Assembly: GCF_014287515.2 (NCBI RefSeq)
Contig: NZ_CP092473.1
Location: forward strand, 957,001-1,021,000
Direction: 5' to 3'
DNA from: Roseburia rectibacter
GTDB taxonomy: Bacteria; Bacillota; Clostridia; Lachnospirales; Lachnospiraceae
DNA length: 64,000 nucleotides
The notes beneath the pieces are model-generated. The model made no database searches, was not told where the DNA came from, and saw only the letters and a list, made by a program, of their open reading frames with translations. Positions within the stretch are counted from its first letter, which is position 1; every line of letters starts with the position of its first letter. The position numbers and the translations under genes were made by a program. Positions 38,490 through 52,720 of the stretch are shown here, piece after piece.

Positions 38490-38551
38490 CTGCTGCTTCG
38501 CAAAAGTTGTATAATCCGTGGAAAATCGCATAGAATAAGAAACAGAAATGA

Positions 38552-38577
38552 GGATAAGCGTTTGCTTATCCTTTTTT
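38552..38577 (+). terminator. Terminator after the GntR gene
   Basis: GGATAAGC/GCTTATCC is a perfect 8-bp stem with loop GTTT, followed by TTTTTT. Confidence 0.93.
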
Positions 38578-38606
38578 GCTGCCACTAAATGATGGTTTGT
38601 TGGGCT

Positions 38607-38922
38607 ATGAGTTCCCCGGCGAAGGGGGGTGGAGTTTTGTGAGTGGCAAATTGCATCAAGCCGGGACTGTTTTGTTCCGTTGTACGAAAATAAGGCAAGT
38701 CTAAGTCAGCCTGATTTAATGTTTCTCGGAGTGACGTGTGCGTCTTAAACGCCCCGTCCGGGGGCATTAAGACTTGTGCTGCCGTCCATGGCAGCACAAC
38801 ACTGTGTTACGAACAGGCAGACTAAGATTGCCTAATTTTCTCCCAAAGTCACAAAACGAATCCCGGCTTGATGCGATTTGCCAGCCACTAAGTTGTGAAC
38901 CACCCTTAGCCGGGGAACTCAT
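38607..38922. repeat. Long palindromic element C (316 bp), structured, possible ncRNA
   Basis: The ends ATGAGTTCCCCGGC (38607) and GCCGGGGAACTCAT are inverted repeats, and pairing continues inward through GGCAAATTGCATCAAGCCGGGA. Two hairpins sit in the centre: GTCTTAA..GCCCC/GGGGC..TTAAGAC (38742-38773) and TTGTGCTGCC/GGCAGCACAA with loop GTCCAT (38774-38799). Unpaired blocks such as 38675-38694 (TTCCGTTGTACGAAAATAAG) and 38833-38852 (TAATTTTCTCCCAAAGTCAC) are shared with element D. No open frame. Confidence 0.88.
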
Positions 38923-39268
38923 TTTGCAACCTTGGAAGTGCGTAAATTTTTAATGTTTGTGTCTGAATCAGATTAAAAAATATTTCCAAATAACTATATT
39001 TAATAGATTATTATTGGTTTGATAATACTGGAAAACCTCAATATATCCCATTATGCCTATGTTTATTGCCATACACATTTGAAAAAATATTCTGTGTTAT
39101 TTGGTCTGACAATTTACGAAATAATTCATGTAATACAATGTAGTAGATGGAAATTCTGGGAAGTCATCAGGCTAAATATTAATGATACAGCACATTAGAA
39201 TTTTAAGCATATTTTTATTCGTGCGAATATCAAAAATCCACACCCGCGCCCCCAATTCTGAGATGAAC
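38923..39268. other. AT-rich gap between elements C and D
   Basis: No open frame with a ribosome site and no conserved motif. The only structure I see is a small ATTCG/CGAAT hairpin near 39217. Apparently spacer DNA. Confidence 0.6.
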
Positions 39269-39578
39269 CGCCCACCCAAATGGTGTTCACAACCTGAAGA
39301 CTGGCATCTTGCGCAAAGCCTGAGCTGATTTTGTGACTTTGGGAGAAAATTAGAAAATCTTAGTGTGTCTGTAGGTATACAGTGATGTTCTGCCACGGAT
39401 GGCAGAACAAGGCAGCATCGAGTCATGGATGACTCGTTGTTGCCGGTCACGTCACTCCGAGAAAATCTAACTCAGACACACTTAGACTTTTCTTATTTTC
39501 GTACAACGGAACCAAAATTAACTCCGGCTTTGCGCAAAATGCCATTCACAGACCTACGACACACCATTTGGACGGGCG
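39269..39578. repeat. Long palindromic element D (310 bp), homologue of C in opposite orientation
   Basis: Outer arms begin CGCCCACCCAAATGGTGT (39269) and end in the near reverse complement at 39578; pairing continues through GGCATYTTGCGCAAAGCC in both arms. Central hairpins are GTTCTGCC/GGCAGAAC with loop ACGGAT (39387-39408) and CGAGTCA/TGACTCG (39419-39436). Blocks 39492-39511, 39333-39352 and 39448-39464 are exact reverse complements of conserved blocks in element C. The stems differ from C but remain paired. Confidence 0.88.
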
Positions 39579-39645
39579 ACGCATGTCAACCACAAACCAG
39601 CATTTGTTGGATAGTTCATTAAACAGTGCAGAAATGGAGATTATT

Positions 39646-43347: not shown

Positions 43348-43499
43348 AAGATTCGGGTGGCAAAAGGTGTTTCATAACTTAGTGGCCGGTAAATTGCACG
43401 AAGCAGGGACTAATTTTCGGACATCGGAACAAAATAGGCACTGTTTTGTGCAATTTGCCAATCAAGAAATTAAAAGTCCCCTTTTGCCACCCGAATCTT
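43348..43499. repeat. Palindromic element E (152 bp), short relative of C and D
   Basis: AAGATTCGGGTGGCAAAAGG (43348) pairs with the reverse complement ending at 43499. On the minus strand it carries GGCAAATTGCAC, the block TTCCGATGTCCGAAAATTA (43411-43429, three changes in 19 from element C) and CCACTAAGTTATGAA, all in the same order as element C. The central hairpins of C and D are missing. No believable open frame. Confidence 0.82.
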
Positions 43500-52536: not shown

Positions 52537-52609
52537 AGCGCGAGACGGGACTCGAACCCGCGGCCCCGACCTTGGCAAGGTCGTGCTCCACCAACTGAGC
52601 CACTCGCGC
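52537..52609 (-). tRNA. tRNA-Gly (GCC), copy 1
   Basis: 73 bases. The minus strand begins GCGCGAGTGGCTCAGTTGG; acceptor GCGCGAG/CTCGCGC, anticodon arm CGACC-TTGCCAA-GGTCG with GCC, T arm GCGGG-TTCGAGT-CCCGT. CCA is not encoded. Identical to copy 2, 38 bp away. Confidence 0.96.
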
Positions 52610-52647
52610 ACATATGAAAATTTATATATCTGTATATCAGATACAAG

Positions 52648-52720
52648 AGCGCGAGACGGGACTCGAACCCGCGGCCCCGACCTTGGCAAGGTCGTGCTCC
52701 ACCAACTGAGCCACTCGCGC
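52648..52720 (-). tRNA. tRNA-Gly (GCC), copy 2
   Basis: 73 bases, identical to copy 1 in acceptor, anticodon (GCC) and T arms. The spacer of each unit is also similar (ATATGAAA..TATATCTG), showing a 111-bp tandem duplication. This copy is promoter-proximal. Confidence 0.96.

Follow-up and report, generated by a model that had tools for sequence, protein, structure and literature searches.

The window, a stretch of 64,000 nucleotides from Roseburia rectibacter, carries two homologous, largely palindromic elements of about 310 bp, designated C and D, which occupy the interval between a GntR-type gene and a gerA-type spore-germination gene and lie as inverted copies on either side of an A+T-rich spacer (Table 1). 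That C and D are homologous inverted palindromes had been proposed in a first-pass annotation of the sequence; an independent repeat search agrees, returning inverted C-D matches (93 nt at 75%, 82 nt at 80%) together with each element's own arms, and the block TTCCGTTGTACGAAAATAAG, named there as identical in both elements, is indeed found at 38675. The same annotation saw no open reading frame in either element, and a protein-coding reading was rejected since the frames in C and D are all short. The pair belongs to a larger unit that begins 12 bp beyond the terminator stem of the GntR-type gene, and D lies directly upstream of the spore-germination gene, whose gerA type was read from the sequence. 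Promoter-like matches within the spacer are few and weak, on both strands. A related single element, probably the 'E' to which the annotation referred, is MITE-like and abuts a gene end, and near-identical ends recur in copies from four other genomes (G002, G013, G029 and G043). Two consecutive tRNA genes lie further along the window, on the minus strand at 52537-52720.

Table 1. Features of the C-D locus and the related element E (positions in the window)
Feature	Position	Strand	Remarks
Intrinsic terminator 3' of GntR-type gene	38550..38573	+	Similar terminator in the relatives' loci shown
Compound mobile unit, ~1021 bp	38586..39606	.	Ends (T/C)AAATGMTGGTTTGTKG ... CMACAAACCAKCATTTG; contains no recognised protein gene
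Element C, whole palindrome including outer arms	38607..38922	-	Strand given is the RNA strand
TwoAYGGAY core of C	38679..38847	-	RF01731, 118.8 bits
C, first GGA hairpin loop CATGGACG	38783..38790	-	From alignment to RF01731
C, second hairpin GGA	38757..38759	-	Loop is CGGA, 1 base fewer than consensus
A+T-rich spacer, bordered by the 5' ends of both predicted, divergent RNAs	38923..39268	.	
Element D, whole palindrome including outer arms	39269..39578	+	Strand given is the RNA strand
TwoAYGGAY core of D	39338..39507	+	RF01731, 142.5 bits
D, first GGA hairpin loop CACGGATG	39394..39401	+	
D, second GGA hairpin loop CATGGATG	39424..39431	+	30 nt past first loop
Element E, related single element	43350..43497	+	Ends GATTCGGGTGGCAAAAGG / CCTTTTGCCACCCGAATC; TwoAYGGAY core deleted

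An Rfam scan places both elements in the family RF01731, TwoAYGGAY, with scores far above the gathering score of 43 and with matches that span the full model (1-168), and the first-pass statement that no known RNA family could be recognised is therefore wrong. The match removes any claim to a novel family, but it leaves the biology of the elements unexplained because TwoAYGGAY has no shown function. Both AYGGAY hexaloops are present in D; C has only the first, its second loop being short yet retaining the GGA. The outer stems to which the annotation drew attention lie outside the segments covered by the Rfam model. Two further hits, to MIR5998 (31.9 and 25.4 bits vs a threshold of 180), were attributed to chance resemblance between long hairpins. 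Rfam assigns TwoAYGGAY to the same clan, CL00106, as E. coli CsrB, which was also scanned. The 2010 description of the family gave it no function and rates it as a probable RNA that is probably not cis-regulatory, with a range comprising the human gut, gamma-Proteobacteria and Clostridiales (Weinberg et al. 2010, PMC2864571). Gardner and Eldai later proposed from motif matches, that is, from a resemblance of the loops, that TwoAYGGAY binds CsrA (PMC4333381), Rfam 15 added two further covarying pairs (PMC11701678), and the family has served as an example in two papers on structure methods (PMC12199142, PMC7657543). Those parts of the published accounts of the family that the open-licence literature offers contain no mention of mobility, and in the same literature we found no paper that connects MITEs of these bacteria with either TwoAYGGAY or CsrA.

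The two window elements fold far better than expected from their composition, with z-scores of -14.7 for C (plus strand folded) and -12.0 for D (minus strand folded) and with none of 100 shuffled sequences folding as well. The compensating stem changes on which the first-pass annotation had built its case prove to be real and general: in an alignment of 42 cores from the window and nine other genomes, hand-picked out of 138 copies, 39 of the 43 consensus pairs survive changes on both sides. The cells in these 43 pairs are paired in 94.3% of instances, vs 66.4% with shuffled partners and 33-43% with slid partners, figures to be read in light of the fact that the structure was derived from the same 42-core alignment, which favours true over slid pairings. 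The outer arms follow the same pattern: in the single-contig genome G032, where left arms average 37% identity among 24 copies, the right arm of the same copy pairs best in 24 of 24 (elsewhere 9 of 11 in G006, 6 of 11 in G011, 14 of 38 in G002, 3 of 17 in G029 and 2 of 12 in G013, the test being weak in these sets because it separates only where arms are diverse). The annotation had suggested either a non-coding RNA family or a cruciform mobile element, and both halves of this suggestion find support, the first in the fixed loops with covarying stems and the second in the mobile units described below.

Alignment with a relative (G029, a single contig of 4,493,348 bp) establishes, as a new finding, that C and D together form one recurring unit of ~1.02 kb, in which a C-type half on the left and a D-type half on the right diverge, and of which four further loci exist in that genome (L237-L240). 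At the window locus and the four G029 loci, the unit is bounded by inverted ends around AAATGMTGGTTTGT, beyond which no similarity persists and each locus has flanking DNA unrelated to that of the others. The unit is absent from 13 of 15 relatives' loci (hand-picked from 80 ispE loci), where the GntR-type and GerA-type genes are separated by 88-198 bp, whereas the window has ~1.16 kb there; at the remaining two loci (L002 and L012) this gap contains different single elements. Beyond these 15, the gap measures 1,062 bp at L017 and 624 bp at L021, with other DNA inside both, by eye another palindrome in the case of L021. The gap thus holds different palindromic elements in four genomes (window, L002, L012, L021), and this suggests, because the same gap is occupied by different elements, that it is a preferred or safe insertion site. 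No direct repeat was seen to flank the compound unit at the window locus or at the four G029 loci, and its ends differ from those of the single elements considered next. A search of G029 for the compound-unit ends (≤2 mismatches) gave nine places, with no pair spaced as in a full insertion sequence and no transposase carrying such ends. One of the G029 copies (L239, G029:C1:2350393-2354023) has a perfect 9-bp inverted repeat, GTTGCCCGA / TCGGGCAAC, on its flanks and looks as if it had landed at the midpoint of a palindrome.

Single TwoAYGGAY elements resemble MITEs, a likeness that is new for this family. They are short, lack a protein gene and possess terminal inverted repeats; in many copies the termini are ATTCGGGTGTCAAAAGG-type inverted repeats with 9-bp direct repeats outside, and single-element copies are mostly intergenic. 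Among the 37 of 138 copies with a recognisable (ATTCGGGTGTCAAAAG-type) end on both sides, a copy's own 9-bp flanks agree at 6.43 of 9 positions vs 4.02 for the flanks of other copies (0 of 20,000 permutations), and the direct-repeat signal peaks at length 9 only (0.71 vs 0.27-0.32). Shortened derivatives extend down to ~40 bp and include internal-deletion forms, element E among them. RF01731 copies number 0-39 per genome across 25 genomes. A genus set of 62 genomes contains 25 positive ones; in this and the larger family and class sets, copy numbers are lower bounds because only 7-37 candidates per genome were scored. The T-run of an apparent intrinsic terminator adjoins several single elements (L106, L146, L094, L144 (G013) and others), with a CCTATAAGG-like target (uncounted).

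Two genomes that carry CsrA but have no RF01731 match bear on how such elements spread. The first, G012, has a palindromic element of ~230 bp with the same ends in five places (loci L012, L296, L300, L303, L309 and L318/L321); in four of the five distinct copies neither strand forms a GGA loop when folded (the other copy contains N bases), and at L296 and L300 the 9-bp flanks agree by eye at 8 of 9 positions. The core does not seem to be needed for spread, because this same-ended element has multiplied without the two-GGA core. In the second, G028, the single-element end stands (L293/L366) before an open frame of 129 residues that matches the NCBIfam model NF049925, IS4 family transposase, at E 3.6e-34 and 118.2 bits (the whole-protein cut-off being 250) and has no Pfam match; the 44 bases inside this end are 68% identical, ungapped, to the best MITE end, a value to which 2,000 shuffles came no closer than 57%. 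Since this remnant shares the single-element end, an IS4-family transposase probably moves the single elements. Target duplications of the IS4 family are ~9 bp in size. Among the terminal-repeat sites examined (20 stretches from 67 places, and 30 loci of 44 places), we found one remnant only and no intact transposase with single-element ends, and full-length relatives of the remnant in two viral contigs have ends that differ from those of the single elements. Searches of viral contigs with two patterns gave no matches; a third pattern gave six loci, with a 2-mismatch end only and with neither an IS4 nor an Rfam match, which were taken as chance.

Among the 133 of 138 copies that were folded, 109, both window copies included, have exactly two GGA hairpin loops, and the spacing between the loops in all 109 is 28-30 nt; two predicted GGA loops at a constant spacing is thus a property of the family that is newly described here. 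Over six copy sets, GGA columns are conserved at 0.93-1.00, other unpaired columns at 0.80-0.95 and paired columns at 0.87-0.96, such that the GGA columns exceed the other unpaired columns in all six (in G013, one of the two GGA loops was recognised). Two GGA loops also occur in 16 of 20 copies hand-picked from distant, CsrA-bearing members of the class. According to a review, the SELEX consensus for CsrA is RUACARGGAUGU, presented mostly in loops of six bases, and one CsrA dimer can bridge sites 10-63 nt apart (PMC7652899); the CAYGGAYG loop of TwoAYGGAY fits this consensus, and the 28-30 nt spacing falls within the bridging range.

In a family set of 299 genomes, of which 45 have RF01731 and 154 have CsrA, the protein is found in 44 of 45 positives vs 110 of 254 negatives (Fisher p 1.7e-13, genomes being counted without correction for phylogeny), and in a class set of 391 genomes the corresponding counts are 31 of 36 and 94 of 355 (p 2.2e-12, kinship again ignored). 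Nine of these 36 class-set positives score below the gathering score; above it, 23 of 27 have CsrA. Group II introns, which served as a control in the same 299 genomes, have no such link (CsrA in 55 of 115 genomes with introns vs 99 of 184 without, p 0.34). The genus set, where 24 of 25 positives carry CsrA, says little about the link because 58 of all 62 genomes carry it. Many genus-set genomes have, beside a canonical csrA, extra CsrA-like frames of ~30-65 bits, and G002 has five CsrA matches. In the sampled genomes, then, and with kinship ignored, TwoAYGGAY tracks CsrA and resides mostly in CsrA-bearing bacteria, an association that is likewise new. Seven RF01731-positive genomes lack CsrA (G236 in the family set; G539, G580, G619, G637 and G679 in the class set; G004 in the genus set), and FliW was found in none of the seven. 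Incomplete assembly may lie behind these exceptions. By eye, the elements of G539 are like those of the CsrA-bearing G385, and those of G580 and G637 are like those of G702. In the five class-set exceptions, two GGA loops are present in 18 of 20 copies, the 20 being all of their matches; the loops are therefore kept equally well without CsrA, an observation that does not favour a CsrA-based reading.

This last observation accords with the view that the elements are purely selfish palindromic MITEs, whose hairpins or cruciforms act at the DNA level in transposition and whose link to CsrA merely reflects the lineages they inhabit. The inverted ends, the 9-bp duplications and the IS4-family remnant with the same end are all as expected for such elements, as are a nearly random orientation and a promoter signal short of significance, and the co-occurrence statistics take no account of phylogeny. 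Nevertheless, a purely selfish element would not be expected to keep its GGA bases better than its other unpaired bases in every copy set, nor to follow CsrA across the class despite strongly differing element sequences when a control mobile RNA does not, and the multiplication of the related, core-less element in G012 also speaks against it. On balance, we regard this explanation as unlikely.

An alternative that draws on the arrangement of the copies is that they are dedicated small-RNA genes of the CsrB type with promoters of their own, dispersed through incidental duplication. The clan held in common with CsrB is compatible with this, as are the weak promoter-like matches in the window spacer and the orientation of close pairs: among the places listed on contigs with at least two, and excluding the window pair, pairs within 1 kb comprise 18 divergent, 0 convergent and 2 tandem, all opposed pairs thus being divergent, as would follow from a bidirectional promoter region shared by both members. 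These 18 are not independent cases: all four from G029 represent a single repeated unit, and one pair in G032 and one in G053 look like the same locus. Promoter matches upstream of the copies show no significant excess over the opposite end in any of six copy sets (all p > 0.05), the strongest being G002, with good matches in 16 vs 8 of 38 copies, and the 9-bp target duplications and core-deleted derivatives are marks of mobile elements rather than of dispersed genes. We consider dedicated genes of this kind quite improbable.

Two further explanations fare less well. Regulation in cis of a neighbouring gene, which would agree with the Rfam type label 'Cis-reg' and with the position of D before the gerA-type gene, is very improbable: the four orientations relative to neighbouring genes are represented by 22, 19, 13 and 11 of 65 copies, which is near random and implies no target gene, 33 of the 65 share the strand of the gene downstream and 35 that of the gene upstream, insertion sites vary between genomes, and the rating in Weinberg et al. 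cited above runs against it as well. Finally, the compensating stem changes could reflect quasi-palindrome correction, in which one arm is copied onto the other during replication, in place of selection on an RNA; this would account for the pairing of diverse arms within single copies of G032 described above, but correction would tend to erase the conserved unpaired stretches and two GGA loops that persist, and we give it hardly any credence.

The explanation that we favour, and hold to be somewhat probable, is that TwoAYGGAY is a MITE-like, non-autonomous element, present in the window in compound form, that carries an RNA predicted to dock a CsrA dimer. It builds on the observed family membership, traits of mobility, conserved GGA loops with their spacing, and co-distribution with CsrA, from which we infer transcription, CsrA binding and a net effect on host or element. 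In this Roseburia-type bacterium, C and D would represent two TwoAYGGAY palindrome halves pointing outward from a shared spacer. Each half, if transcribed, would yield two GGA-loop hairpins 28-30 nt apart that could be bridged by a single CsrA dimer. The element would spread in the manner of MITEs, with an IS4-family transposase as the probable agent for the single elements. Its RNA would capture CsrA, so that a genome with many copies would amount to a dispersed CsrA sink.

So construed, the elements share features with several known systems while departing from each. As in the described members of RF01731, the cores of C and D have two GGA hairpins on a multi-helix stem, although the unit here is longer (~310 bp, with palindromic arms) and occurs as a divergent pair in a mobile unit of ~1.02 kb. 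CsrB/RsmB and related CsrA-sequestering RNAs (RF00018) also display GGA hairpin loops, belong to the same clan and are matched by the CsrA binding expected here, but CsrB presents many CsrA sites per RNA from one gene, whereas TwoAYGGAY would have two sites per RNA and many dispersed mobile copies. With IS4-family MITEs the single elements have in common their short, non-coding nature, inverted ends, 9-bp repeats, mostly intergenic location, internal deletions and the end of an IS4-family remnant, and they differ in carrying a conserved two-hairpin RNA and in being palindromic over nearly their whole length. BIMEs are inverted pairs of palindromic repeats, and the occurrence of palindromic units as inverted pairs is thus a likeness to REP/BIME sequences. 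Unlike these, TwoAYGGAY occurs as single elements with target duplications, its opposed pairs are exclusively divergent, and its units measure ~300 bp as compared with 20-40 bp for REP units (PMC3733652).

A broader proposal, which we advance only tentatively as one possibility, is that TwoAYGGAY comprises a lineage-spanning class of transposable elements, selfish or domesticated, that exploit CsrA or rely on it, each intact copy docking one dimer, and that copy number sets the strength of what would be a mobile counterpart of CsrB in Clostridia. The idea of CsrA binding becomes directly testable in light of the link to CsrA in the sampled genomes, the control with group II introns, the fixed distance between loops and the mobile, core-less relative. 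If the proposal is true, transposition itself would rewire the availability of CsrA, and transposable elements bearing sites for a global regulator could alter regulation through their copy number, gut bacteria included.
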